NCBI GenBank assembly: GCA_030611205.1
Contig: JAUWQF010000006.1
Span: 1-38,215, forward strand
DNA: 38,215 nucleotides
Direction of reading: 5' to 3'
From: Methanothrix sp.
Lineage (GTDB): Archaea > Halobacteriota > Methanosarcinia > Methanotrichales > Methanotrichaceae
Every line of letters starts with the position of its first letter. Positions within the stretch are counted from its first letter, which is position 1. This document shows, in pieces, positions 3,883-29,881 of this stretch. Position numbers and translations under genes: made by a program. Under the pieces are notes generated by a model, which saw only the letters and a list, made by a program, of their open reading frames with translations, made no database searches and had not been told where the DNA came from.

Positions 3883-5124
3883 ATGGATAGAGCCGTCCAG
3901 ATAGCCAAAGAGGCGGTTGAAGGCGGAGCCGACTGGATAGAGGCCGGGACGCCCCTCATAAAGAGCGAGGGGATGAACGCTGTGCGCGAGCTGAAGAAGG
4001 CTCTGCCCGAAAAGAAGATCGTGGCCGATATGAAGACCGTGGATACAGGATCCATGGAGGTGGAGATGGCGGCCAAGGCCGGTGCCGGGGTGGTAGTGAT
4101 CCTTGCCGCTTCCGATGACTCCACCATCGAGGACGCCCTGAGAGCGGCGAGGCAGTTCGGCGTGGAGATCATGGGGGATCTTCTGGGCACCCCCGACCCG
4201 GTGGCACGATCCAAGGAACTCGAAGCCCTCGGTGTGGACTATATCTGCGTTCATGTGGGCATAGACCAACAGATGATGGGACGAGACACCATCGACTTTC
4301 TGAAGGAGATCGTGGACGAGGTGAAGGTGCCTGTGGCTGTGGCGGGGGGAATTGACGCCGCCTCGGCCTCGGAGGCTGTGGCATCAGGTGCGTCCGTGGT
4401 GATCGTGGGTGGTAACATCGTCAGGAGCGCCGAGGTCACAGACTCCGCCCTGGCGATCAGAAGATCGATGGACGACGCTCGGCCAGGCGCTAGAAAGAGG
4501 ATGGGCATGGACGAAGAGCTTGTTTTCATCCTCCGAGAGGTTTCTACCCCCAACATATCCGACGCCATGCACCGGAAGGGCGCCATGCGCGATATAACGC
4601 CCATAAACGTAGGCGTCAAGATGGTGGGAACGGCGGTCACCGTCCAGACCTTCGAGGGCGACTGGGCCAAGTCGGTGGAGGCGATCGACGTAGCCGGACC
4701 GGGTAACGTCATAGTGATCTACAACGGGTCCAGGTACATATCGCCTTGGGGCGGTCTGGCCACCCTCAGCTGCAAGAATAAGGGGATCGAAGGGGTGGTG
4801 ATAGACGGCGCGGTCAGAGACGTGGACGAGATCAGAGATCTGGAGTATCCCGTATTTGCCAGCGCCGTCACCCCCAACGCAGGAGAACCAAAAGGCATGG
4901 GGGAGATTAACGCGGAGATCACCTGCGGCGGACAGGCCGTCCGGCCCGGAGACTATATCGTAGGGGACGACTGCGGCGTGGTGGTAATACCGCGCGAACG
5001 GGGCTACGAGATAGCGAGACGGGCCAAAGAGGTGGAGAAGACGGAGAGCCGGCTCTACGAAGAGATCAAACGGGGGAAGACCTTATCCCAGGTGGCCAAC
5101 CTGGAGAAGTGGGAGAAGAAATAG
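3883..5124 (+). CDS. Bifunctional 3-hexulose-6-phosphate synthase / RraA-like domain protein
   Basis: Hps domain ([40 protein letters not shown]...) fused to an RraA/DlpA-type domain ([11 protein letters not shown]...[14 protein letters not shown]...VFASAVTPN). The conserved N-terminus [13 protein letters not shown] lies upstream of the first ATG (see finding). Confidence 0.9.
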
Positions 5125-5213
5125 TTATACCTCCTCTCAAAACATAAGTGAAACGTGCTAAATGATGCTGGATAAATACGTTTGAACCCACCGGCGCGTG
5201 CGAGGATGCTTGT

Positions 5214-6098
5214 ATGGACCCAGAGATATTAATTTCAAAATATGAACCAAAACAGATGGTGGCCATTCCGCTTACCGTTCTGATGCTGGCGCTTCTCGTA
5301 TTGGGAGCGACCTATCTGAGCACAGGCTCGCCTGTGAACCTGGGGGTCGAGTTCACGGGTGGCACCAGCATTACCATCCCTGCGGTCGAGACGGAAGAAG
5401 AGATAGCGGAGAAACTGGCCGACTACCCAGTGGTAGAGATAAGGGACGTAGGTAACAGCTACCGGATCCTGCTGGGATCGATGAGCGAAGAGGATTACAG
5501 GGATCTCGCCTCAGAGATAAACACAGAGTACGAGGATGCCGAGATAAGGTATACGGGGCCGGTGTACAGTGAAGGTCTCCAGAAGCAGGCGCTGAAATAC
5601 ATACCGGCGTCCTTCATCCTAATGGCTCTGGTGGTGCTGATCATATTCAGGACGCCTTTCGTATCGTTTATTATAGCCCTGTCGGCATTATCTGATATTA
5701 TCATCGCCACGGCCTGTATGAACCTGACCGGGGTCAAGCTCTCCTTGGGAACGGTAGCGGCTCTCCTCATGTTGATAGGTTACTCGGTGGACAGCAATAT
5801 CCTTCTGAACAACCGGGTCCTGAAGAGGAAAGGGGTAATCGAAGAGAAGATAGTGGGTGCCATGAGAACAGGCATAGCCATGACCTCCACTACGCTCTCG
5901 GCGATACTGGTGCTATTCATAGTATCTGCCTTCTCGTACCTGGTCTCGGATTCATTCACCAGGATCAACATACTCTTCGATATCTCTGTGGTGCTGATAT
6001 TCGGTCTTCTCGCAGACGTGATGAACACATGGGTGATGAACGCGAACATGCTCCGGTGGTACATGGCTCGCAAGCCTAGCAGGAGGGCAAAACGATGA
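5214..6098 (+). CDS. secF: Protein-export membrane protein SecF
   Basis: 294 aa; VEFTGGTSITIP, multiple TM segments, GYSVDSNILLNNRVLK, TRTLN-region equivalents; precedes secD. Confidence 0.92.
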   Translation: MDPEILISKYEPKQMVAIPLTVLMLALLVLGATYLSTGSPVNLGVEFTGGTSITIPAVETEEEIAEKLADYPVVEIRDVGNSYRILLGSMSEEDYRDLASEINTEYEDAEIRYTGPVYSEGLQKQALKYIPASFILMALVVLIIFRTPFVSFIIALSALSDIIIATACMNLTGVKLSLGTVAALLMLIGYSVDSNILLNNRVLKRKGVIEEKIVGAMRTGIAMTSTTLSAILVLFIVSAFSYLVSDSFTRINILFDISVVLIFGLLADVMNTWVMNANMLRWYMARKPSRRAKR

Positions 6099-7872: not shown

Positions 7873-8397
7873 TTGAGAACGGGGTTGTTGCTAGCGTCGT
7901 TGCTTCTGCTGACCGCAGCGGTATCGGCTCATCCGGAGACGGTCCAGCTGGGTCGGTATAACGTCTCGTTCGACCTGGGTGCCGGGACGAGCTATACCGC
8001 AGAGGTCGAAGAGCTCGAAGATGGCGGATGCATATCCTATCTATGCTGGCTGAAAGGCGAAGAGGCGATGCTGATCGCCCTGACCGACCATCTCCTGCCC
8101 ATGGTGGTGAGTTATGGTATCATCAAAAAGAGCGTCCAGACCTTTCTCATCGAGGCCAATTGTCGGGAGATCCGGACCCACGAGGTGATCATCGACGGGA
8201 AGCCGGGGGTGCTGGGCCTGGGCGAGCGACCTTCCGGCCCGGTTCTCTTCTGTGTGATCTACTGGCCGGATCTGCACGAGGCCGACGATGGGACCGATCG
8301 TGGCCGGGTAGACTGCACCATCGCCTCGGAAGGGTCTCTGGCGGTGACGGAGAACCTCCTGAACACCATCCATGTGGAGGTACCCCAGGAAGGCTGA
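7873..8397 (+). CDS. Secreted hypothetical protein
   Basis: TTG start with GGAGG upstream at 7861; signal peptide LLLASLLLLTAAVSAHPE; 174 aa. Confidence 0.7.
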   Translation: MRTGLLLASLLLLTAAVSAHPETVQLGRYNVSFDLGAGTSYTAEVEELEDGGCISYLCWLKGEEAMLIALTDHLLPMVVSYGIIKKSVQTFLIEANCREIRTHEVIIDGKPGVLGLGERPSGPVLFCVIYWPDLHEADDGTDRGRVDCTIASEGSLAVTENLLNTIHVEVPQEG

Positions 8398-8401
8398 GCC
8401 G

Positions 8402-8420
8402 TTGGGCGGATCTTGCCCAA
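8402..8420. terminator. Hairpin TTGGGC-N7-GCCCAA between convergent genes, putative terminator
   Basis: Perfect 6-bp stem just after the stop at 8397. Confidence 0.35.
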
Positions 8421-8510
8421 ATATCCACCAGGTATCGATTTGGCTAATCCGCTATGAATTTTCCCAAGTCCAATATCCCACAACATAGCACGAACTGCCA
8501 TAGAAATATG

Positions 8511-9062
8511 TTACCACCGCCCGCCCATCTTCACCAGATACCCCACCATGGCGCTGTGTTCTACTATACAGGCCGCCACGTAGGCCTCTTCCAGGTTCGT
8601 TCCCTGGGTGAAGACCCCGTGGCCCCTGGCGATGCAGGCCCTGTGCTCCCGTAGGGCCTTAGAAGCGTTCCTGGCCAGCTCATCGGTCCCGATCCCCCCT
8701 TCCACTATGGGCACCCGGTGCAGAAAGTAGGAGCCTTCGCTGTCGACGGGCTCGAAGGATACATTTTCCAGGAGCGAGACGACCACCGCATAAGGAGAAT
8801 GTGTGTGGATTATGGCCAGGGCAGAGGTCTCTCCATAGATGGCCCGGTGGACCACGGTCTCGCTGCTCGCCAGGATGTCCAGCGAAGAGGGCCGGCGAAG
8901 ACCCACCTCCACCACCTGCAGCTTATCGATATCGTCCAGCATGGACCCCGACCTGGTGATCACCATCCTATCTGCAGCCCGCATGCTGATGTTGCCGAAA
9001 TGGGAATGGGTGAGACCTGCGCTCACCAGCTTCTTGCCGAACCTGGATATCTCCCGCCACAT
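8511..9062 (-). CDS. Class II aldolase/adducin family protein
   Basis: MWREISRFGKKLVSAGLTHSHFGNISMR...MVITRSGSML...ALAIIHTHSPYAVVVSLL...ARGHGVFTQGTNLEEAYVAACIVEHSA; metal-binding HTH and RGHG motifs. ATG at 9062, 14 nt after the inferred subtilase stop. Confidence 0.85.
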   Translation of the reverse strand: MWREISRFGKKLVSAGLTHSHFGNISMRAADRMVITRSGSMLDDIDKLQVVEVGLRRPSSLDILASSETVVHRAIYGETSALAIIHTHSPYAVVVSLLENVSFEPVDSEGSYFLHRVPIVEGGIGTDELARNASKALREHRACIARGHGVFTQGTNLEEAYVAACIVEHSAMVGYLVKMGGRW

Positions 9063-9076
9063 CTTCGCACCACACC

Positions 9077-10946
9077 CTAAACCAGGTTGAAAGGAACCGA
9101 ACAGGTCGCAGCATCTCCGAACCCGTCCCGGGCAACCACCCGCAAAGAATAGTCTCCGGGCACCCAGAACTCGGTCTCCCACCCGGGCGGTGTAAGTCCC
9201 ATCGAGATCGGTGTCGTACATGGGTATTCGGATCTCCTTCTCAGGTCCCATCACCAGGACCTCCGCGCCGCACACATCTCCGGATATTTCCGCTTCGATG
9301 ATCATCCGATCGCCCGGGCTGGTCCCGGCGCCTGCCAGGCGGACGTTGCTCACGATGGGCCCTTTCACCGCAGGATCTTCTGTCATCTCCAGGGACCGGC
9401 TGAGGTTCAGCTCGCCCCATCCGTAGGTGTTGTCGGGACCTGGGACGCCCAGGTCGTCCGCCGACCTGAGCAGCGCCCTCTTTACATCTGCCGGACTGAA
9501 ATCCGGCTCTTTTTCCAGGAGGACCGCGATCGCTCCCGCCACCTGGGGTGCGGCCATCGAGGTCCCGTCCATGGTGCTCCGACCCTGGAGAGTTCCTGCC
9601 CTGGCAGAGCCTACATCCACACCTACCGCTACCAGGTCGGGCTTGATCCTGCCGTCCGAGGCCGGACCACGGGACGATCTCCGGTAGATCTGCCCTCCGG
9701 CATCCACCGCCCCCACGGTTATTACCTTCTCTGCGCTGCCGGGGATCACGATCGATCTGGAGGCAGGTCCGGAGTTGCCCGCAGCCACGCAGACTACCAT
9801 CCCTTCGTCCACTATCCTGTCGCAGGTCCTGTCCAGGAGCGATCTCCCATCGCGGGGAGCTTCTCCGCCAACGCTGAAGGATATCACGTCTATCCCCAGC
9901 TCGTCTCGCTCCTCCGTGCACCATTCGAGAGCCTTGAGGGCGTCTGATAGGTAGCAAGCACCCTTATCGTCCATCACCTTGACCACCACCAGTCTCGCCC
10001 CGGGCGCGACCCCGCCATCGGTGCCCGCTATAAGCCCGGCACAGTGGGTCCCGTGACCATGATCGTCATAGGGCTCGCTGCGACCGTTCACGAAGTCCTT
10101 GAAGGCGACGATCTTGGGGTCGTTGGTGGATAGATCGTCGTCCATGTCGTCTAAAGACCGATGCTTAGGATCGATACCCGTGTCCAGCACGGCCACCGTC
10201 ACGCCCTTGCCGGTGGCGTTGGGCACCCTCATCCGGGGATCTTCGAAGGGGATGTACCCATTTTCCAGATCGCCCAGGATCTGGAGCTTCTGGTCTTTGT
10301 ATATCCCCACAACACCCTTGAGCCTGGCCAGGTCTTCTAACCGATCGCCTGGGATCACCATGGAGAAACCCGACAAGATCCCCGGCTCAACCCTGAACCG
10401 TCCTAGGACCTCCTCCCCCTGGGTAACGTTCTTGTCGTGTATGACGATTACCCTCAGCTCATCCGGCCCCAGGCACTCCAGGCTATCCTCGATCCGGTTG
10501 AAGTTTAGGTCCCGTAGATCGAAGACGGCAACGGTCTGGTTATCGTCTTTGGCACCGTTGCCGCATCTGTCCACCGCAACGATGGTGATCGTGTAGTTTC
10601 CCGGCGAAAGATTGGGACTCCAATAGCCCACATAGCTCCCGTTCCTCTGGATATCTATCATGGGGATGAAACGCCCGCCCACCTCGGCATGTACCGAGCC
10701 GATGCCGGTCTCGTCTCTGACCCGGGCGTTGATCTTGGTCAGGTTCCCGTATGTTACCGTCTCCGGCGCCTCGACGCCGAGGATGACGGGCGGCGTCTGG
10801 TCGCAGGCATCTGAAAAGTGGATACTGCCCGGGTATCCAGTGAACCAGCAGGTCGGCTCTTCGGTGCCAGGGTATGAGGCACCCGGACCAAGAGCATAGG
10901 TCAGCACAAGAAAAGAAAGAAAAAATAAGGGTGTCGAGCGCTTCAT
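9077..10946 (-). CDS. Secreted S8 family subtilisin-like serine peptidase (frameshift near the 3' end in this sequence)
   Basis: Signal peptide MKRSTPLFFLSFLVLTYALG; VAVLDTGID (Asp), HGHGTHCAGLIAG (His), GTSMAAPQVAGA (Ser). After a shift near 9175-9195, the alternate frame reads ETEFWVPGDYSLRVVARDGFGDAATCSVPFNLV*, ending at 9077. Confidence 0.85.
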
Positions 10947-18553: not shown

Positions 18554-18873
18554 GGGACCTGGTGGGCGGCGGTCTAAACCCGACATTCAGCATTAAACTC
18601 TAGATTCTGCAGGTGCAATACGCGTAAAAACAATTTTCTATGCCATTTTATATCACAATACGTTACATAATGTGGGATAACATCGTATAATTTTTTAGCT
18701 AAATCAGGTCACACCACATAGGGCGTCCTTTAGAGCCCTACATCAGAATCTTCGAGGCCTAGCCAACGCACAACTCACAATTCACATAATTAAAATAAAT
18801 TTTTAGTTTGGTTGGGAAATCGCTATCAGGAAAAAATATTCCTGTGACAAAGCCCGACATACGGGATGTACGT

Positions 18874-19693
18874 GTGCGACAAGAAGCTGTATCGAGGATT
18901 GAGGTTCAATGCGCCGTCCTATCCGTTTGGGATGTCCCTACCATGGCATGCGGTTCCGGTAACGGAACGGTGTGAAGCCCATGGGACAACGTGGAGAAGA
19001 ACGGAACCTTGATCTGTTCAATTTGCCAGGGAAATGACGCCATGGAGAAGCAAACGCTGAATCATCGAAAAAGGGTCGTAATCCGCAACAGGCGAAATCA
19101 GGGTGATCACGCCTGAACCAAAAGGTACGGAGCCCGGCTATTACTGCAACCTACACAGAATGGCAGGCGGACACGGTGGCTCCCGGCTCAAAGATGGCTC
19201 CTACCGCGTCAAAAGTATCCTCGATACGGAACTTGGTAACCCGGATGCGCTCCTCGCTAGAGGTAAGGAGTTCGCGAGAACGACTGACAGCGCAGCCGGG
19301 AGAGGATGTCTCAAAAAGCGAATGCCTGCCGGTAATGGGTAGGATAGAGGCATGTGCCTCAGCCTGAAAGGGCGCAGACTTGGGACAGGTGTTTCACGGC
19401 AAAAAAGGGTGGTATTCCAGTGAAAGTACGACATTCAACGACGCCGGTAGGCGAGAAGCGTACTGACTGGGAACTCGTCCGTCAATGGAACTCCATCGAC
19501 TGGGACGAAGTAAAATCCCGAGTTAACCGGTTACAGACCCGGATTGCAAAGGCAACACGTGAAGAAAAACTCTTATTCTTCGCGTTCCGCCGCCCGACCA
19601 TCATGTTGTGAAATGCGCGAGCCGTATGCGGTGAAAGTCACACGTACGGTTCCTGGAAGGGGGGACGGTGGTAACACCTTCTCCCTATTCGAC
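18874..19693 (+). mobile_element. Group II intron, chloroplast-like (CL) class by domain V, with a truncated intron-encoded protein
   Basis: 5' end GTGCGAC at 18874 (GUGYG could also start at 18872); domain V GAGCCGTATGCGGTGAAAGTCACACGTACGGTTC at 19619-19652; domain VI-like GGAAGGGGGGACGGTGGTAACACCTTCTCCC; 3' end near CTATTCGAC (approximate). Confidence 0.85.
19420..19611 (+). pseudogene. Remnant N-terminus of a group II intron reverse transcriptase/maturase
   Basis: MKVRHSTTPVGEKRTDWELVRQWNSIDWDEVKSRVNRLQTRIAKATREEKLL; the W..IDW..V...V.RLQ.RI.KA motif is typical of the RT N-terminus. The ORF ends a few nt before domain V, so RT, X and En domains are missing. Confidence 0.78.
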
Positions 19694-20064
19694 AATAAGA
19701 TATATGGGCACATCAAAAAAGAAAACGATGGGGGGAACTGCTTCAATTCTTGAAATATATTCGCTCGTTTTACAACGAAAAGCTGCATATCATCCTCGAC
19801 AACTTTAGCCCACATAAAAAGGTCGAAGTAGTTTTATGGTACAGGGAAAATACTATAGAACTGGTATTCCTCCCAACCAATGCTTCTTGGTTGAACCTGA
19901 TAGAATGTCACTTCACTGCGCTTAGAAAATTCGCTATCCGTAACTCGAACTATCAGAACCACAAAGAGCTGGGAAGCGACATAAGGAGATATTTTATTTG
20001 GCAGAATGAAAATTGTGGTGATGAAAAATTAGAACGAATTGAAAATGGGATTAACTTTTCATGA
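19691..20064 (+). pseudogene. 3' remnant of an IS630-family transposase
   Basis: DNKIYGHIKK (frameshift in an A6 run) RKRWGELLQFLKYIRSFYNEKLHIILDNFSPHKKVEV...VFLPTNASWLNLIECHFTALRKFAIRNSNY...IRRYFIWQNEN; second catalytic D and the final E are present, 5' half missing. Confidence 0.82.
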
Positions 20065-20216
20065 CGGGGCCCTCTGTCCTTAGATCGTAGATGGCGGTGT
20101 TGGTTCTGCTACAAAAAACTCTGCCACATGCGCGACAGATATTCTGCACCCTACCACTCTTCGTGTTGTATGTGCCGTTACCGCCTACATTTCCTTTACC
20201 CGCAATTCGGTAGTGA
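20051..20216 (-). pseudogene. Remnant of an IS1-like zinc-finger transposase N-terminus
   Basis: Reverse-strand DHYRIAGKGNVGGNGTYNTKSGRVQNICRACGRVFCSRTNTAIYDLRTEGPVMKS*, preceded by an in-frame stop; a second partial start (CPNEDCDLYGIAG) lies at about 20365-20405. Confidence 0.6.
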
Positions 20217-20617
20217 TCTCAAGTTTGGTTGATGTTTTGTGGGCGAATCCTTAAAGCGATCATTAGATAACGTTTTTGTTGATGATCTCGATTGAAGATG
20301 CTTCTGCCTAAAACCGTCCTCGGCGTCGTATTTCTGAAAAACATCAACCTCTTGAAGAGGCACTACCCGCAATTCCGTACAAGTCACAATCCTCGTTAGG
20401 ACATGCAACATCATTGAATCCCGGTTTTAGACCTCTTCGACTCATCTTGCTACACCCGCAATGAGATAGGACGTAATAGTATATAACATCAACTCACTGC
20501 AAACGCACTACCACACTGTGAACAAAAAGGCCAGTAAAAATCTCAATAAACATCTGTAAAACCATCTTAATTTAATTAAGTTGTAACGATGGGTGGCAAC
20601 TTCTTATCATCTCGTCA

Positions 20618-20640
20618 TAAGAAAATCTTCTTATATATGA
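20618..20640 (+). promoter_or_regulatory. Putative promoter of the peptide cluster: inverted repeat TAAGAA-N4-TTCTTA overlapping TATA-like TTATATAT
   Basis: TAAGAA (20618-20623), TTCTTA (20628-20633), TTATATAT (20631-20638), about 100 nt upstream of the peptide ATG. Confidence 0.4.
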
Positions 20641-20735
20641 AAACATGTTATCAACAAACCATAAGTGTTAAATAGTAAGAAGTATACTGATATTTTAGCG
20701 TGGCAATGCCTCGACTAAAAATGGGAGGTGGAAAA

Positions 20736-20879
20736 ATGGAAGAATTTGCAGGAGCAAACCAAGATGGGGGCGTGGTGCCGGATGCCTGCTGGTGCGATTG
20801 GTGCAATTGTTCGGGTGGTACCGCACAGAGTACCTTTTACGGCCAGGACTACCAGACCAACCCCTCCAGGTATTGGTAG
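20736..20879 (+). CDS. Putative RiPP precursor peptide, 47 aa, core motif CWCDWCNC
   Basis: ATG at 20736 behind GGAGGTG: MEEFAGANQDGGVVPDACWCDWCNCSGGTAQSTFYGQDYQTNPSRYW*. Cys 18, 20, 23, 25; Gly-Gly at 11-12 and 27-28; directly upstream of two radical SAM genes. Below the ORF-track cutoff. Confidence 0.8.
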   Translation: MEEFAGANQDGGVVPDACWCDWCNCSGGTAQSTFYGQDYQTNPSRYW

Positions 20880-20890
20880 GGTAGTGTAAG

Positions 20891-20940
20891 TAAGGACAGA
20901 GCGGCATCTGAAACAATCGTTGCAGATGCTGCTATCCTTA
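20891..20940 (+). promoter_or_regulatory. Long intercistronic hairpin between the peptide and the first radical SAM gene
   Basis: TAAGGA(20891-96) CAG AGCGGCATCTG(20900-10) AAACAATCGTTG CAGATGCTGCT(20923-33) A TCCTTA(20935-40); 17 paired positions with one G-U and a small internal loop. Confidence 0.65.
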
Positions 20941-20997
20941 TATTTAGCAGCTCGTTTCGAGATTTGTGACCATTATAAGCGGAAGACGGTGGCAAAA

Positions 20998-22485
20998 ATG
21001 TTAGAATTTGAAACTCCAGCAGGAAATATGTATGCTTGGGATGATGAAGTAGGTCTATTCATTCCATTTTCTCTGGATATGAGGGCGGTCCTAAACGAGA
21101 TCTCAAGCCAAAAGTCATTAGCTAGAGAGAAAGTTATAGGGCAACTAAAAGAGAATTTCGATGAAGAAGAAGTCGCATTTTGCTACGATTGGTTTCAAAA
21201 GTGGGAAAAAATTAGACATCAAAACTATCAATCTCAAAATCCTCGAATGTTTCATGTATCGGATATAAGAAATTACGTGTTAAGATTCGGTCTTTTACGT
21301 CTCACGTTATGCATCACAGAGGATTGCAACTTCAGGTGTAAATATTGCGCTTATTCCGACTTCTACGAGTATACTCGCAATCCTTCTAATAAGTATATGG
21401 ATTTCACCATTGCAAAGAAAGCAATAGATTACTACTTCTCGTTATTAAAGGAAGGAAAGAGATACAATCCTTTAAGAAAACCTGCAATAGGATTTTATGG
21501 AGGTGAACCCTTATTGAATTTCAAATTAATTAAAAGGATTGTGAATTATATAGAAAATAAATATAATGATTGCAAAATTATATATACTGTTACCACAAAT
21601 GGCAGTTTACTAGATGAAGAAAAGGCAAACTGGCTTATGGGACGTGGTTTTATCATAGATGTTAGTCTGGATGGGCCCGAAGAGGAGCACGATAGACTTA
21701 GAGTTTATACCAATGGAAATGGAACCTTCAGAGATGTTATGAAAAATGTCGGTTCAATAATGGAAGCTGGATATAACGATATCGGATGTCTTCCAGTTTT
21801 TGATTGGAAGAGCGATCTATTCAAGCGGGAGGAATTTTTCAATAGACACGACGTTCCACGAGTACAGGGGGCGTTCCCAGTTGACGACGTGGAAGGGTGT
21901 TCATATTATCAGCAATTCACAAATGAGGATCGTCTTGCGTTTATAGAGCAGTTTGAAAGAGCTAGAGACTACTATTTTACGAACCTAGATCGCCAAATAC
22001 GAAGAAAAAAACTATCTCTTTTCGATGATATAATCGGCCAGGCTCCAAAAAATGCACTCTTCAGGAGCATATCAATCTATCGACATCACTCAATAATGCC
22101 ATTTACCGGCGCATGTATACCAGGAAGAAAAATATATGTAAATGTAAATGGAAATTATTACATGTGCGAAAAACTAAATGAGGGTTTCCCTATTGGAAAT
22201 GTGAATGAAGGACTGAGTTTTGAAAAAATCCTTAAATTAATTTATGAATATAATAATTCTATGGATAGGTGTCCAGAATGCGAAGTGGCACGTAGATGTA
22301 TCTGTTGTTATAAATCTTTTGAAATCGGTAATGGGTTTTTGTGCTCCTCAGAAGTATGCAAAGGAATCGAATCTGATATGAAAAAATCTTTTATTGATAC
22401 GTTTGAAATAGCTGAAAAATATCCAGAATTTGTAGAAGAGAATGCCTTTAAACATAAAAACATCAAAAAATACTACGGTAGGTAG
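20998..22485 (+). CDS. Radical SAM/SPASM peptide maturase (Cys-rich-peptide-maturase-like)
   Basis: CITEDCNFRCKYCAYSDFYEYTR (CX3CX2C), GFYGGEPLLNF, VTTNGSLL, DVSLDGP; SPASM-type Cys cluster CIPG...MCEKL...CPECEVARRCICCYKSFE...LCSSEVCKG. ATG at 20998 with GGTGG upstream; track start is 20920. Confidence 0.87.
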   Translation: MLEFETPAGNMYAWDDEVGLFIPFSLDMRAVLNEISSQKSLAREKVIGQLKENFDEEEVAFCYDWFQKWEKIRHQNYQSQNPRMFHVSDIRNYVLRFGLLRLTLCITEDCNFRCKYCAYSDFYEYTRNPSNKYMDFTIAKKAIDYYFSLLKEGKRYNPLRKPAIGFYGGEPLLNFKLIKRIVNYIENKYNDCKIIYTVTTNGSLLDEEKANWLMGRGFIIDVSLDGPEEEHDRLRVYTNGNGTFRDVMKNVGSIMEAGYNDIGCLPVFDWKSDLFKREEFFNRHDVPRVQGAFPVDDVEGCSYYQQFTNEDRLAFIEQFERARDYYFTNLDRQIRRKKLSLFDDIIGQAPKNALFRSISIYRHHSIMPFTGACIPGRKIYVNVNGNYYMCEKLNEGFPIGNVNEGLSFEKILKLIYEYNNSMDRCPECEVARRCICCYKSFEIGNGFLCSSEVCKGIESDMKKSFIDTFEIAEKYPEFVEENAFKHKNIKKYYGR

Positions 22486-22487
22486 AG

Positions 22488-23630
22488 ATGTACTTCAGAC
22501 TAAATCCAGAATGCTATCTAATTAGGGGGGTGAAGCGAGGAGCAATTTACGATTTAATAGATGAGAAAATATGTGCTCTGAATCAACAAGAAACGGAATT
22601 AGTGACATCCTGTGAAAAAAATAACCATGTCCGAGGGGATGAAAAACTTCTATTTAGGCTTAAACAGCTTCGCATGGGGAACTTCTACCAAAATAAAGTA
22701 TATATACAAAAATTGAGAGTTGGATCTCCCATCAAGGAAATGGAGAGCGATCCTCCAGCACTTCATAGAGCTTTCCTTGAAATAAACAACTCATGTAATA
22801 GGGATTGTTGGTTCTGTGGTTGCCATGGGATAAAAAGAAGTTTTGGATGCATGGGATGTAATAAATGGAATGAAAGCGGCGAGATCTTAAGTTTAGAAAA
22901 GTGGAAAGCAATTATTGATGAGCTAAGAGACCTAGATTGTAGAGATATTTTTATAACAGGTGGAGACTTGACTTTAGTATGGGATAGAGCGATAGATATC
23001 TTAGATTATGCAAATGGGAAATTCAGAAATATCTATATGATACTTCATCAGCAAAGCTTATCTTTAATTAAAATAAACGATTTGGCTGATAAAGCTAACA
23101 TAATCGTCCAAGCTGATGATTTTAACACCATACAATCCAAAGATCTAGCAGTCCTCGTGACGGTGAAGCCCGAAAACTGGGAGGACGCTAATAACATAGA
23201 AGGCAAAAATATAAGGATAGATTTTGTTATTGAAGACGAGAATTCCTTGTCAAATGATCTGCCGTTAGTATCTAAAAATAAGATTTTACCGGTAAATATG
23301 TATCGGTTTATGAACAACTTAGAATATCACCCATGTCTTGGACATACATTAGCAATTTGTTATAATGGAAATGTCATTCCATGCCCCATGATGAGGAGTC
23401 ATAGCTTTGGCAATGTGAGAGACAGAGAACTCTATGATATTTTCGAAAAAGAATGGGAGGATATAGATAAATTTTGGAATTTAAATTTAGATACAATAGA
23501 AAAATGCACAAGTTGTGAATTCAGATATGCCTGTACTGATTGCAGGGCCTTGGAAGAAAGTTTAACAGGGAAATTAAAGGGCAAGATACTATGCGGCTAT
23601 GATCCAAAAGAAGGAGAATGGCTGCAATGA
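22488..23630 (+). CDS. Second radical SAM/SPASM protein
   Basis: FLEINNSCNRDCWFCGCHG (CX3CX2C), DIFITGGDLTL, C-terminal HPCLGHTLAICYNGNVIPCPMMR...KCTSCEFRYACTDCRALEESL...CGYDP; 2 nt after the first radical SAM gene. Confidence 0.85.
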   Translation: MYFRLNPECYLIRGVKRGAIYDLIDEKICALNQQETELVTSCEKNNHVRGDEKLLFRLKQLRMGNFYQNKVYIQKLRVGSPIKEMESDPPALHRAFLEINNSCNRDCWFCGCHGIKRSFGCMGCNKWNESGEILSLEKWKAIIDELRDLDCRDIFITGGDLTLVWDRAIDILDYANGKFRNIYMILHQQSLSLIKINDLADKANIIVQADDFNTIQSKDLAVLVTVKPENWEDANNIEGKNIRIDFVIEDENSLSNDLPLVSKNKILPVNMYRFMNNLEYHPCLGHTLAICYNGNVIPCPMMRSHSFGNVRDRELYDIFEKEWEDIDKFWNLNLDTIEKCTSCEFRYACTDCRALEESLTGKLKGKILCGYDPKEGEWLQ

Positions 23631-25327
23631 TGGATAGGTACAGATATTTCATTACTAAATTCGTTAGACCACATGCCCTCACCATGGTACTTCTCATTGC
23701 TTTGAGCTTTGTGGGTACGCTCTTTTCGATCATCACTCCCTTGCTCGTCAAGTCTCTAGTAGATGACGTTTTTATAGGTGGAAGGACCGGGCTGTTCGGC
23801 TATATCCTCTTAGGAACTGCAGGGATATATATCATTTCATCGCTTTCATCTTACATATCGGGCTTTAAAAAGGGAAAATTGGACCTAGTTCTTTTTAATA
23901 ATGTCACCAACGAAGTATTTAACGCAATCCAACTTGCACCTATCAAAAAAACGCAGGATATGAAAATTGGAGATCTGCTCAGCCGCATCATGGTTAATAC
24001 AAGATCTGCCATAAATATGTTCACATATATCATTCCAGAGTTTATTATCAGTGTTATACGTATTATCTCACCGCTTACTATAATGCTTTTTCTAAACCTG
24101 CAGCTTACTCTTATTGTGGTGATACCTGCGATACTCTTCCTCTTCCCCATGTCGTTTTTCGGAAAGAGATTAGAGGATACGCAGAGGACATCCTTGGTGA
24201 AGACAGCATCAATATACTCATTTATAAAAGAAAATCTCTCCATGATGCCGTTAATAAAGGTTTTTGTGCTTGAGAGGTGGTCTCGAGACAAGTTTGCCGA
24301 AGAGATGAGAGGTTACTATGATGCATCTATAGATTATACAAAGCACTCCTCTCTGAACAACTCTATAGGTTCTCTAATGAGCGGAGTGCCCATGGTCCTT
24401 CTTATCTTGTTTGGCGGGCCGATGGTGATTCATGGTTCCTTGACCATAGGCACGTTTACTGCTTTCATGAGCTATGTCGGTCTCTTCTTTGCCCCCCTCT
24501 CACAACTTGCATTCTTATGGTCCTTTTATAAGAGCTCTTTGCCCGCCTTCGATAGAATTAACATCGTACTTCAACTGGAAAAGGACGAGGGAGGAGAAGA
24601 AGAGCTAATAGTGAAAGATGGCATGATAGAATTTGATGATGCCTGGTTTTCCTACAATAATAGGCCGATCATCCACGGCTTCAATGCCACCTTTACGAAA
24701 GGCTTGAATTATATGGTGGGAGATAACGGGGCGGGGAAGTCTACAATCCTCAAATTGCTCTGTTCCCTTTATTCATTGGATAGTGGGCAGATCAGGATAG
24801 ATGGGCTGGATATCTCAAAGGTGAAGGGGGGTGACCTGAGAAAGAACATCTCGATGATATTCTCGGAGCCCTACCTGTTCGATGGTTCCATTTATGAGAA
24901 TATTCGCATTGGCGATCTCTCGGCATCCGAAGAGAAGATCATCTACGCTGCGAAGCAGATCCGCGTGCATGAGTTCATAACTAGCCTGCCCCAGGGGTAT
25001 CAAACGCAGGTCGGGGAGAGTGGATTGAAGCTGTCAAGCGGGGAGAAACAGAAGATCTCCCTGGCAAGGGCCGTCTTGAAGAACTCTCCGATAATTCTTC
25101 TCGACGAGGTGACCAAGTCCATAGATATAGAGTCGAGAAGATCGATCAACGAGGTCATCAAGGGTTTAAAAGACGAAAAAACGATAATAATCATCACCCA
25201 CAACGTAAACGAAATAGAGCCTGGCAGCAATATAGTTTATTTAGGCCAAGAAAGTCAACGAAAAGATCGCACCCATCGTTCTATCGAAGTACCTCTGCCA
25301 AGGGCAGTATCTCTGCAAAGGGCATAG
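23627..25327 (+). CDS. ABC transporter, fused permease and ATPase (exporter type), no C39 peptidase domain
   Basis: MMDRYRYF...TM domain..., Walker A GDNGAGKST, signature LSSGEKQK, Walker B IILLDEVTKSID, H-loop ITHN. Overlaps the second radical SAM gene (TGCAATGATGG). Track start is 23618. Confidence 0.9.
   Translation: MMDRYRYFITKFVRPHALTMVLLIALSFVGTLFSIITPLLVKSLVDDVFIGGRTGLFGYILLGTAGIYIISSLSSYISGFKKGKLDLVLFNNVTNEVFNAIQLAPIKKTQDMKIGDLLSRIMVNTRSAINMFTYIIPEFIISVIRIISPLTIMLFLNLQLTLIVVIPAILFLFPMSFFGKRLEDTQRTSLVKTASIYSFIKENLSMMPLIKVFVLERWSRDKFAEEMRGYYDASIDYTKHSSLNNSIGSLMSGVPMVLLILFGGPMVIHGSLTIGTFTAFMSYVGLFFAPLSQLAFLWSFYKSSLPAFDRINIVLQLEKDEGGEEELIVKDGMIEFDDAWFSYNNRPIIHGFNATFTKGLNYMVGDNGAGKSTILKLLCSLYSLDSGQIRIDGLDISKVKGGDLRKNISMIFSEPYLFDGSIYENIRIGDLSASEEKIIYAAKQIRVHEFITSLPQGYQTQVGESGLKLSSGEKQKISLARAVLKNSPIILLDEVTKSIDIESRRSINEVIKGLKDEKTIIIITHNVNEIEPGSNIVYLGQESQRKDRTHRSIEVPLPRAVSLQRA
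25289..25324 (+). repeat. 18-bp tandem repeat x2 in the ABC transporter C-terminal tail
   Basis: GTACCTCTGCCAAGGGCA / GTATCTCTGCAAAGGGCA, encoding VPLPRA/VSLQRA. Confidence 0.75.
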
Positions 25328-25712
25328 GATCTTTAGTTACTTTTGGGTGATAGGAGGATCTGTTGCATAATATAACACAAAGTCTAAATACCTTGTGTAT
25401 CATACTCCGTCAATTGCCGTAATCCGAAGCGGTAAGTGGGTGTGGGGTGACCGCCGTAATAATGTAATCCTTGCAAATTAACACCGGCAGCGTTCTAGTG
25501 CATGTCGAAGTGGCAAGGGTGGTTTAATGAGGGAACGAAGCAAATTAGCAGAGTCTGGACCGGTTACTAATAAGCTTACCACTTCAAAATTAGTGGAGAG
25601 GCTTGTTCTTATCCTGACATATGTGATGAGTCTATTACAGCCTACGGGAAGGTCACTAGGAATATCTATTTCATCATTCCATCAATATATTCGTATCAAA
25701 CGTGGTGTTTTA

Positions 25713-28700
25713 ATGAAGAACGCAAGATTTTCCGTTGTTTTATGGTTAGTAGTAGTAGTAATAGTAATAATAATAATACCTCCCTCAGATGCGTTAGATA
25801 GCGGCAATCCTGCTCTTTACGACGCATATAAAAAGTCTCTGGAGGAGCTCGGAGTCGAGGATGCCTGGGATATGGGCTACACGGGTAAGGGTGTGAAGGT
25901 AGCGGTGATAGATAGCGGTATAGACTTCGCCACTCCAGACCTCATAGGGACCCAGGCTCGAGTATCAGACTCGCGTTCTCCTTACTTTGGCTGGCCTATC
26001 GTGGTCGATCTAGCCTCGCTCTCATCCCATCAGCAGAATATCTCTGTCTATAACACTCAATATGCAAACACGATCTCTACCGATGTGAAGGGCTACCAGA
26101 TAACAGGGACCAGTAAGAGCGGCATTTACCACACGGGGGATCACCCCGACCGGCATCTTGCCGAATTTTACGGCCAGCCGGTGAAGGTTCTCTTGGTCGA
26201 CGAGAAAATTTCCGGCGTTTATGACACGGTATACGTCGATCTGAACAACAATCTTGATTTCAGGGATGATAAGCCCTGCCGAAAGGGCGATGAGATCTCC
26301 TACTGGGATAGAGACGAGGATGGTTATCCAGACGAATCCGGTGGCATGATCTACTTTATAGCAGACGGCAAAACCCCTCTGCCCTTCTCAAAGATGCTCT
26401 ACGGTGAGTGGGCAAAAATACCGAAGAATGGAGAGTTGGTTGCATCCCACTTCGATGACGGCAATCACGGCACAATGTGTGCCGGAATTATAGCTGCCCA
26501 GGGCAAAAATATCAAGGGCATTGCCCCTGATGCCAGGCTCATACCGATTCGATTATCTGGAGCAAATGACAAGCTTCTCTGTCTCCTCGCCTCCCTTGGC
26601 TACGATGGAGTTCCAAATACGGGAGATGAAGCAGACGTTATAAGCCGAAGTGGAGGTTTCCGGGACACCTTCAACAAAGGTGGTGATGAGGGGTCGGCCT
26701 TCTTAGAATATCTCACTACCAGAGTTTCACCCTCTACAACCATGGTGTATGCGAATGGAAACGATGGCTCGGGGTACGGCACCTGCGATCCTCCTTCGAG
26801 CGAACACGTAATTAATGTTGGCGCAACCTATGATCTATGGTGGAACGGCTCTTCCTATAGAGGTGATGTGGCCTGTTTCTCTTCTCGCGGTCCAAACGCT
26901 CTAGGTCAAGTCAAACCGAACGTGCTGGCTACTGGCTATCGTGCGCCTCAGCCTTTGCCTCTATGGACGACTCACAGTGGTAAAGCCGCATGGAACGATT
27001 GGGGTGCTGGAACCAGCGGAGCAACGCCGCACGTCGCCGCAGTTATTGCTCTGATCTACCAGACTTACAAAGAGAAGTACGGACGATTTCCCACATCTGA
27101 GAAGGCCAGGGACATTCTCATGTCCTCAGCCATAGATATAGGTGAAGAGGTCTTCGCCCAGGGTTCAGGAACAATAGATGCCAGAAAGGCGGTGGAGGTC
27201 GCATCCGGGAAAGACGGGGTTCTGGTTGAACCCGCACTACTAATCACCCCGCCTGTTGTGGCCGGATCTACTCTGGAGTTCAACTTCACAGTTTCAAATT
27301 ATTCTGATAAGCCAATTAATCTAAAACCCGAAATACTGATAAAAAACAAAACCAAAGAGTTAACTCTGAAATCTGCGAACGAACGTTCCTTTTTCCCCAT
27401 ACCTCGGGATATGCTCGACTGCGATTTGATGAAGGTCTCCACCTATTATCCAAGAGATGCCAGGAACACGATGCTGAACAAAGAGGAGGGATATGATCTT
27501 TACCTCTACAACTGGAAGGATGTGAACGGCGACGGAGAAATACAAGAAGGCGAACTTGAACCCATAGCGTTAAACATCGGCGATTGGGGTTATGGATTTA
27601 CCTCCGAAGTGAGAATGCACCATCCTGAAGAACGAATAGATGACGGGCTTGTGGTCGGCCTGAAAATGAGAGGTGAAATAAAGATAGATAAGGTAAAGGC
27701 GGTGATTGAGACATACAGATGGAAACCATGGGACATCGGAGTAAATATCGATGACAATAATGTCCACGTTTCAATACCGACGTCCAATACCACAGGGGTG
27801 TTTCAGGGAAAGATACTTTTGGAAGAAGGTGGCGAGAGACATTGTATCCCTATATCTTTCTCGACCTATAGATGTGATGATATCTCAATAAACAACACGA
27901 GAGATATCTACGAGAATGCCAAGATCTACGGAAGGTTTGAAGGGGATGGCAAAAGCGGCTGGGATTCGAGATTCTATCCGGTATACCATCATGGTCACGA
28001 TTTAGCGACCATTGAGGTTGCATGGGAAGACACGAATACGGATATAGATGTTTATCTCTATGGATGGGATAACTTCAGCGCCTCAGAGGTCTGGAAATAC
28101 CCCACAAAGCCCCCCATAGAGCTTCCCAAATTGAGGGCTCTAAAAGAAAACGGGCATAGCCTAAGGATCTTGGGAACCACTGTTATTGTATGTGGAGATA
28201 GGGCCAGGGGCGGCCCCAGCTACAGCGCGTTTTACACATCTACTGGAGAGAACAGAGAAGTGATAACCGGTGAACTTACGGATGGGCTAAACCTCGTTGT
28301 CCTGCGTCAAGTGGTCCCTGGAGGCAATAAGTACGGAGAGAACATAACTGTAAAGGTCAATGTTGTGCCTTTTAGTCCTATAGATCTCAGAGCTAAAGCT
28401 GGAGAGACGGTTCTTATGCCAGCCGGAACAGGCAGCGTAATGGGCTTTTCCAGAGGCGAAAAGGTCAGAGGCGGAGAGTTCATCCCAAAGGCATTCCAGA
28501 CAGAGGAAGGAGATGTAATACTGATCCGCTCCAACAATACCCTCTACATGCCACAGATATTCTTCGATTCAAACGAGAATGGAATGATGGATGAGGGCAT
28601 AGACATGTCCTTTGGATCAGAAGGTAATGTGATGGATGAGCTGATATTTGGCGAGAGCAGAAATGACGATATAAATCCCTCTTATACCGATATAATACCA

Positions 28701-29540
28701 ATCCGTAAAGAAGGAACTTACTTCCTCAGGAATTTCGGCGGCCAATGCGAACTTTATCACATGAAGGATCGATACGAGGGTAACGCCAGCGCACCGATGA
28801 AGATCAAAGCGCCTGAACAATCAGGGGTATATTTGGGGATAGCAGAAATGGATGGAAACCTCATTCCTGTTCCTCTAAAACTGGTGGTAACGACCGGAGA
28901 ACCTATATCCATCCACCTAGACACCGTAAATCGTACTGGTCGCAATTTGCTTTTCGAGGTGAAACTGGAGATACATGACAAATTTGGTAACCTCGTCGAA
29001 GATACAGTCGATGTCACTGTAGAGTTCAATAACACAACGAAGAATGTGGATTTCATAAAAGGAAGGGGGGCGATCAACTTAACAGCGCCCGATAAAACCG
29101 GAATATACAGGATAACAGCACAGAGCAGACACAGCATAGCGGAAACGGATATTGAAGTAGATGATGAAGCTGTTGACGAAATCGAGAATATCAGCGTTAA
29201 TGACGCAATGATTGCAGAAAAAACAGATGAGACCTCTGAGACGAGAGAAACGGCATCGTCGGAAGTAAAGAACGATTCACCCGAAACGATTGAATCTGTA
29301 TCGATCCTCTCGGCTGGTGGCAACATAAACCTCACATGGCAAGCTTCAGAGAAAGCTGATCATTATAACGTGTACCGCCTTAAACGTAATATCCCGGAGA
29401 AGCTTGCTGAAGTAAAAAATCCTGAATATACCATGAAGGGGGAGCTTTGGGAGAGCTATACGTTTTGTATATCTGCTGTGAACATCTCAGGAGATGAAGG
29501 CGAACTGAGCGATCCTGTTGGGATCGTAGTTACACCATAA
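25713..29540 (+). CDS. Large secreted S8 family subtilase with C-terminal fibronectin-III-like domain
   Basis: ATG at 25713: MKNARFSVVLWLVVVVIVIIIIPPSDA signal; VAVIDSGID (Asp), NHGTMCAGIIAAQG (His), GAGTSGATPHVAAVIALIYQ (Ser); C-terminus NLTWQASEKADHYNVYRLKR...YTFCISAVN. Track start 25527 is probably too far upstream. Confidence 0.87.
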   Translation: MKNARFSVVLWLVVVVIVIIIIPPSDALDSGNPALYDAYKKSLEELGVEDAWDMGYTGKGVKVAVIDSGIDFATPDLIGTQARVSDSRSPYFGWPIVVDLASLSSHQQNISVYNTQYANTISTDVKGYQITGTSKSGIYHTGDHPDRHLAEFYGQPVKVLLVDEKISGVYDTVYVDLNNNLDFRDDKPCRKGDEISYWDRDEDGYPDESGGMIYFIADGKTPLPFSKMLYGEWAKIPKNGELVASHFDDGNHGTMCAGIIAAQGKNIKGIAPDARLIPIRLSGANDKLLCLLASLGYDGVPNTGDEADVISRSGGFRDTFNKGGDEGSAFLEYLTTRVSPSTTMVYANGNDGSGYGTCDPPSSEHVINVGATYDLWWNGSSYRGDVACFSSRGPNALGQVKPNVLATGYRAPQPLPLWTTHSGKAAWNDWGAGTSGATPHVAAVIALIYQTYKEKYGRFPTSEKARDILMSSAIDIGEEVFAQGSGTIDARKAVEVASGKDGVLVEPALLITPPVVAGSTLEFNFTVSNYSDKPINLKPEILIKNKTKELTLKSANERSFFPIPRDMLDCDLMKVSTYYPRDARNTMLNKEEGYDLYLYNWKDVNGDGEIQEGELEPIALNIGDWGYGFTSEVRMHHPEERIDDGLVVGLKMRGEIKIDKVKAVIETYRWKPWDIGVNIDDNNVHVSIPTSNTTGVFQGKILLEEGGERHCIPISFSTYRCDDISINNTRDIYENAKIYGRFEGDGKSGWDSRFYPVYHHGHDLATIEVAWEDTNTDIDVYLYGWDNFSASEVWKYPTKPPIELPKLRALKENGHSLRILGTTVIVCGDRARGGPSYSAFYTSTGENREVITGELTDGLNLVVLRQVVPGGNKYGENITVKVNVVPFSPIDLRAKAGETVLMPAGTGSVMGFSRGEKVRGGEFIPKAFQTEEGDVILIRSNNTLYMPQIFFDSNENGMMDEGIDMSFGSEGNVMDELIFGESRNDDINPSYTDIIPIRKEGTYFLRNFGGQCELYHMKDRYEGNASAPMKIKAPEQSGVYLGIAEMDGNLIPVPLKLVVTTGEPISIHLDTVNRTGRNLLFEVKLEIHDKFGNLVEDTVDVTVEFNNTTKNVDFIKGRGAINLTAPDKTGIYRITAQSRHSIAETDIEVDDEAVDEIENISVNDAMIAEKTDETSETRETASSEVKNDSPETIESVSILSAGGNINLTWQASEKADHYNVYRLKRNIPEKLAEVKNPEYTMKGELWESYTFCISAVNISGDEGELSDPVGIVVTP

Positions 29541-29881
29541 AATGAGTGGCAGTCCCGAAACCATCGAGGAGGCCCTACCGGGCCTTCCCGAGTTCCATCG
29601 CCACCAGTACCGTCTTCACCTCTGCAGTATATTCCGGTGCTAGGGCAGAGGTGCAGAGGACCTCCCGCGCCTATTGAGCAAGGGCAAACGTAACTATTCA
29701 GGCATACCCCAGTAAGCAGCTCAAATGAGTCTTGAAGCATAGGAGATTTTTATAGTCTTTCGGTAAACTTAATATAATATGGCTGGAGTTTATAAAACTC
29801 GGGTCCAAAAACGATATTGAGCAGGCGCCGATTACCCCCGCCGGAAAAGAACTTTAATCATACGCCGACAGATAAGAACTC

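Follow-up and report, generated by a model that had tools for sequence, protein, structure and literature searches.

The stretch analysed here (the window: 38,215 nt of Methanothrix sp. contig JAUWQF010000006.1) carries, at nt 20,682–29,540, a candidate cluster for a ribosomally synthesised and post-translationally modified peptide (RiPP). It consists of a precursor gene, two radical S-adenosylmethionine (rSAM)/SPASM genes (rSAM1 and rSAM2), an ABC exporter gene and a gene for a secreted S8 subtilase, all five on the plus strand (Table 1). A first-pass annotation, made from the sequence alone, had reported five same-strand genes in an AT-rich island of a methanogen-like archaeal genome, including a 47-amino-acid (aa) Cys/Trp peptide gene, two rSAM/SPASM genes 2 nt apart and an ABC exporter overlapping the second. 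All of these features were recovered. The peptide open reading frame (ORF) has the proposed ATG start, the two enzyme genes are spaced as described, the exporter gene overlaps rSAM2 by 13 nt, and the GC contrast with the flanks is clear. The genome encodes McrA, and the organism is thus a methanogen. The secreted subtilase was borne out by its PF00082 domain, intact D/H/S motifs and N-terminal hydrophobic segment, with a corrected start: its ORF opens at nt 25527, while homologues and the hydrophobic signal segment point to a start near nt 25713. For rSAM1, the ATG at nt 20998 (MLEF...) was chosen over nt 20920 because all homologues start with MLEF or MIEF. In the exporter, the Walker A, signature and Walker B motifs are intact.

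Table 1. Cluster genes and associated features (window coordinates, nt)
Feature	Position	Strand	Remarks
Variable low-GC segment	18579..29794	.	Holds the cluster, group II intron and IS630 remnants; congener G237 differs here
Conserved 5' element	20682..20736	+	10-bp imperfect hairpin with bulged A, TTTTAGCGTGGCAATGCCTCGACTAAAA; lies directly before the precursor start
Precursor gene	20736..20879	+	47 aa; four Cys (18/20/23/25), then 22 residues free of Cys; homologous/analogous ORFs elsewhere
Intergenic hairpin	20900..20933	+	11 bp, then U-rich stretch; strong spacer hairpins in 5/5 loci
rSAM/SPASM maturase 1 (rSAM1)	20998..22485	+	CNFRCKYC; PF04055
rSAM/SPASM maturase 2 (rSAM2)	22488..23630	+	CNRDCWFC; PF04055 + PF13186
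ABC half-exporter	23618..25327	+	PF00664 + PF00005; no C39 peptidase domain
Secreted S8 subtilase	25713..29540	+	1275 aa; PF00082, E 1e-33; candidate extracellular leader peptidase

The cluster lies in an 11.2 kb segment with a GC content of 0.435, compared with 0.585 and 0.609 in the flanks. Upstream of the cluster are pieces of a group II intron (Rfam RF02012 at 18915–19050 and RF00029 at 19617–19693), with no maturase ORF at nt 18915–19693, and a C-terminal fragment of an IS630-family transposase (19750–20064). Genome G237, from the same genus as the window, matches both flanks collinearly at about 94% identity. It lacks the gene block, however, and carries 1.3 kb of unrelated DNA in place of nt 18,579–29,794. 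Because of its low GC content, its absence from this congener and the intron and IS630 remnants, the segment is best described as variable and probably acquired, a mobile-looking cassette; loss by deletion in G237 is the alternative. A phage or virus origin of the cluster was rejected, as no relatives were found among viral contigs or phages.

Conservation of the precursor gene and the enzyme pair

Homologues were sought in 238 genomes of the class (with rSAM1) and 394 genomes of the phylum (with rSAM2); genomes and loci compared with the window are denoted by G and L numbers, respectively. Three further genomes of the family have the rSAM1-rSAM2 pair: G194 and G204, with two loci each, and G210. 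Another family has rSAM1, rSAM2 and the ABC gene in G422 (found from rSAM2), and a fragment comprising the end of rSAM2 and the ABC gene in G438; both of these loci are cut by contig ends. A scan of genome contigs with rSAM1 returned only a weak match in Rickettsiales. The order peptide, rSAM1, rSAM2 is kept in the window and in L030, L031, L032 and L033, four loci from two genomes of the family that share its same-strand layout. In L034, a precursor candidate was seen only in divergent orientation, and it has a terminal Cys.

In all five same-strand loci, an ORF of 42–47 aa with three or four Cys lies directly upstream of rSAM1, so that a homologous small ORF beside the enzyme pair, as the first-pass annotation expected, is present in every complete same-strand locus examined. 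The window precursor, MEEFAGANQDGGVVPDACWCDWCNCSGGTAQSTFYGQDYQTNPSRYW, carries the Cys block CWCDWCNC. Its nearest relative is that of L032, MEEFSKANQDGGTPEACYCNWCSCSGGNAQSVFYGQDYQTNPSKYW; the precursors of L031, L030 and L033 are more diverged. The window and L032 genes differ at 5, 7 and 23 sites at codon positions 1, 2 and 3, respectively (synonymous pS 0.81, nonsynonymous pN 0.13), a strong coding signature that points to selection on the encoded peptide. A chance ORF was rejected, since homologous ORFs stand in the same place at four other loci and third-position changes dominate. A search of the PDB with the peptide returned only designed 'Pizza' proteins, which was regarded as an artefact.

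The precursors differ strongly in sequence among loci and in Cys spacing (CxCxxCxC, CCxxCxC and CxCxCxxxC), and they start with ME[EV]F or contain a related motif (MEEMEVFE). In all five, every Cys precedes a Cys-free tail of 17–22 residues. Each thus has the layout of a sactipeptide precursor: a short leader, N-terminal Cys and a Cys-free acceptor part after them.

BLAST detected no relationship between the two enzymes (E 0.24). Both keep the CxxxCxxC motif and a set of SPASM auxiliary-cluster cysteines (residues 373, 390, 425, 428, 434, 437 and 454 in rSAM1; 283, 299, 340, 343, 349, 352 and 369 in rSAM2). Shortly after its rSAM motif, rSAM2 has an additional, invariant CxxC at 121/124, and its cysteines are invariant across the archaeal copies and the homologue from Ruminococcus albus described below, which also has the conserved N-terminal block YFRLxxECY...G...IYDL. 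The best NCBIfam matches of rSAM1 were CcpM (TIGR04068, 226.5 bits, cut-off 500) and RumMC (NF035951, 187 bits, cut-off 720), with lower scores for PapB (NF047865, 131.8 bits, cut-off 340), TIGR03906 (120.9 bits, cut-off 453) and the SCIFF maturase (TIGR03974, 99.5 bits, cut-off 425). The peptide has no match among known precursor families. The best match of rSAM2 was the grasp-with-SPASM enzyme GwsS (TIGR04193, 104 bits, cut-off 175); plasmid matches were restricted to the C-terminal part, and none of the cluster genes encodes an ATP-grasp protein. Single-sequence AlphaFold models of the two enzymes (mean predicted local distance difference test scores of 37 and 34.5) were too poor to use.

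The 5' element was described by a covariance model, R1, built from five copies, which found the window copy, itself in the training set, with an E-value of 7.9e-11. In the 50 genomes of the family the model has eight sites, namely the five training copies and three new ones, all confined to the three genomes in which a cluster was found together with its precursor. Covariation among the five sequences was not above that of shuffles, so the element may be a DNA operator instead of an RNA element; it is probably either an operator or the start of the mRNA. Being specific to the cluster, it offers a handle for finding more precursors. The spacers between peptide gene and rSAM1 all form strong hairpins (whole-spacer minimum free energy −23.7 to −62.3 kcal/mol). 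The window hairpin is a probable partial terminator or processing site favouring the precursor, and the spacer hairpins would fit a precursor made in excess of the enzymes.

Comparison with known systems and interpretation

A tblastn search of plasmids located the two enzymes side by side, in unchanged order, on pRUMAL03 of R. albus 7 (NC_014826.1; WP_013483959/960/961), where a huazacin-family precursor (NF037972, 50.1 bits, cut-off 35) lies upstream of them in two copies. No huazacin relatives besides those of R. albus were found on other plasmids. As in the window, the order is precursor(s), rSAM1, rSAM2, ABC. The R. albus enzymes are 30% identical to rSAM1 over 431 aa and 27% identical to rSAM2, the latter with the same rSAM, CMGC and SPASM cysteines and with the N-terminal block and extra CxxC in common. 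Its precursor starts with MELFE, close to the archaeal starts, and has four Cys and a Cys-free tail. The R. albus cluster differs in its ABC type, in having a CPBP protease and not a subtilase, and in a precursor core that is unrelated by hidden Markov model comparison. Its product is uncharacterised as far as searched, the precursor being a predicted antibiotic peptide (sactipeptide) of a gut bacterium. Since the same type of enzyme pair serves a predicted sactipeptide there, this link is the strongest pointer to the chemistry.

Two distinct rSAM/SPASM enzymes per cluster are also found with thuricin Z/huazacin (ThzA/C/D) and thuricin CD (TrnA/B/C/D), both from Bacillus, and the small precursors of these systems have a Cys-rich N-terminal part like the archaeal ones (PMC8172795, PMC12093266). 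The likeness to ThzC/D and TrnC/D is drawn from published descriptions. TrnC and TrnD form a complex (PMC12093266), while ThzC and ThzD are both reported to be active in vitro, and the bridges of thuricin Z are nested (Cys4-38, 8-34, 12-30 and 16-26; PMC8172795). The archaeal precursors, with Cys first and a Cys-free tail after, match this nested layout. A difference is that TrnD has a single auxiliary-cluster motif, whereas rSAM2 has the full set of SPASM cysteines. The first-pass annotation had regarded two maturases, a very short leader and a giant subtilase as unusual. In view of thuricin CD and thuricin Z, two rSAM enzymes are not unusual, and neither is the short leader; the giant subtilase stands as the less ordinary part.

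We consider it likely that the locus is a two-maturase, sactipeptide-like RiPP cluster with export and cleavage outside the cell, in a methanogen. The earlier core inference, that a peptide is modified by two rSAM/SPASM enzymes and exported, is supported at the sequence level by the small ORF beside the pair and by the R. albus parallel. In the proposed scheme, the 47-aa precursor would be made at a high level from a short transcript between the 5' and intergenic hairpins, and rSAM1 and rSAM2, a co-inherited pair, would bind its short leader (ME-[EV]-F...). The pair would then join the four N-terminal Cys, most likely by thioethers, to residues in the C-terminal part, which is free of Cys, giving a folded-back hairpin. 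By homology and by analogy with TrnC/TrnD, rSAM1 is probably the main catalyst, with rSAM2 as its partner or as a second catalyst. The half-ABC transporter, having no C39 protease domain, would export the peptide with its leader on, and the secreted subtilase would presumably act like NisP, cutting off the leader once the peptide is outside. The product might, at a guess, act on neighbouring microbes or serve as a signal.

Several observations weigh against this interpretation. Both enzymes score well below every NCBIfam equivalog cut-off, so the chemistry is unreadable from homology, and alpha-thioether, beta/gamma-thioether and C-C crosslinks are all compatible with the data. A PqqD search for a RiPP recognition element gave no match in rSAM2. 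The five same-strand archaeal precursors match no NCBIfam model, that of huazacin (NF037972, cut-off 35 bits) included. The Cys spacing of thuricin Z is regular and that of the archaeal peptides differs from it. Finally, L030 has neither a same-strand exporter nor a subtilase directly downstream.

The same cluster logic would also suit a ranthipeptide or other rSAM class, with beta/gamma-thioethers of the PapB/SCIFF type or Trp/Tyr C-C cyclophanes. The PapB and SCIFF maturase scores of rSAM1 agree with this, as does the nearest solved structure to rSAM1, 5wgg, the ranthipeptide enzyme CteB. CteB is used as a structural reference in PMC12093266. The window precursor moreover has Trp/Tyr residues between its Cys and at its C-terminus. 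Against these points, the RumMC and CcpM models outscore those of PapB and SCIFF, the R. albus homologue adjoins a huazacin-family sactipeptide precursor, and Trp is not conserved among the precursors, which makes this class assignment unlikely. The parts list further resembles that of the qhp operon, which encodes a small Cys chain, an rSAM/SPASM enzyme, an ABC exporter and a subtilase. By this analogy with QhpC/D/F/E, the Cys-rich chain would be the crosslinked, exported and trimmed small subunit of a redox enzyme, and rSAM1 does match TIGR03906 and, by tblastn, Paracoccus peaB. The TIGR03906 score is nevertheless far below the cut-off, no dehydrogenase or other enzyme-subunit gene is found among the cluster genes, there are two rSAM enzymes, and the subtilase is larger and secreted. 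The strong variation of the precursor between loci also fits an enzyme subunit less well than a bioactive peptide, and a quinohemoprotein-style function is regarded as very improbable. A paper on the subtilisin-like protease for qhp is cited in PMC8172795.

A further question is whether the exporter and subtilase are merely neighbours within the island, the system then consisting of the peptide and the two rSAM enzymes only. The ABC gene is separated from the start of the subtilase by 386 bp, which would allow this, as would L030 and the lack of a subtilase after the ABC gene in G422 and G438 (the two loci cut by contig ends). However, subtilase relatives at E ≤ 1e-40 occur in 3 of the 50 family genomes, all three of which carry the enzyme pair. 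Same-strand ABC orthologues are present in L031, L032, L033, L048 and L049, and the subtilase comes after the ABC gene in the window, L031/L052 (as tandem copies), L032 and L033, which are all four of the family clusters with a same-strand exporter. A chance association of these genes is accordingly thought quite unlikely.

Two-rSAM clusters, short leaders and predictions of archaeal rSAM RiPPs are already known (PMC8172795, PMC12093266, PMC12144867). According to a 2025 survey, rSAM-modified RiPP clusters are predicted widely in archaea, where experimental validation had until then covered only two lanthipeptides (PMC12144867). What is new here is an archaeal family that falls short of every NCBIfam equivalog cut-off, together with its cluster-specific subtilase and 5' element and the connection of the enzyme pair to R. 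albus. A literature search, with most subscription journals outside its reach, found no description of the present cluster. More speculatively, and with considerable doubt, the loci could represent an undescribed archaeal RiPP class. Its hypervariable peptides would be crosslinked by a dedicated rSAM pair, exported, and cleaved extracellularly by a giant subtilase specific to the cluster; the same cis-acting 5' element would also drive the PatG_D/PatG_C cassettes of G204 (see below), so that methanogens would have one common arsenal of peptides for competition. The cluster provides a compact archaeal test case (a 47-aa substrate, two candidate maturases, a bacterial homologue pair and a candidate leader protease), and bears on two questions: whether methanogens produce crosslinked peptides for competition, and whether archaea, too, have obligate partnerships of two rSAM enzymes like that of thuricin CD.

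Other features of the related loci

At least four tandem subtilase paralogues follow the exporter in G204 (L052 and L062, G204:C1:1-14000), one pair at the end of the contig and another at its start, and between the last two lie two ORFs of 375 aa each that are transposase-like by appearance only. At L030:14251-16095 and L034:3938-5785, the rSAM pair has next to it an ABC transporter of a second type, about 615 aa long.

Between the two rSAM pairs of G204 there are three tandem units on the minus strand (L031:950-2400, 4450-5900 and 8030-9500; G204:C1, about 2.986-2.994 Mb), each consisting of a 5' element, a 303-aa PatG_D/PatG_C protein and a Cys-rich peptide of 46–55 aa. Fragments of the second-type ABC transporter precede each unit in L031, and the 5' hairpin element is the same as that of the rSAM precursors. 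While the three PatG_D/PatG_C proteins are near-identical, the leaderless-looking peptides differ (MGNCCAACREP..., MPCCTCKCWDP... and MANCWCRLAEG...). PatG_D proteins occur in 6 of the 50 family genomes, and variable Cys-rich peptide ORFs follow them in the five genomes read (G204, G207, G237, G196 and G194). At L090, L091, L092, L093 and L094, which lie in other genomes of the family and include G237 from the window's own genus, a PatG_D/PatG_C protein of about 305 aa is likewise followed by short, variable Cys-rich ORFs, such as MGTCCCKNSLPPYNYLGCETKPGCPTNVTCYYPYYRVCWGAGC. These units may be a second peptide system, candidate cassettes with hypervariable peptides.

Genome G156, which belongs to the same class but to a different family, encodes at L050:5784-7745 a 203-aa protein whose Cys motifs are of the CGP type, with an rSAM/SPASM gene beside it. 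The enzyme has a TIGR04053/StsB-like profile; it was set aside as a different system and represents a separate candidate peptide-modification locus.

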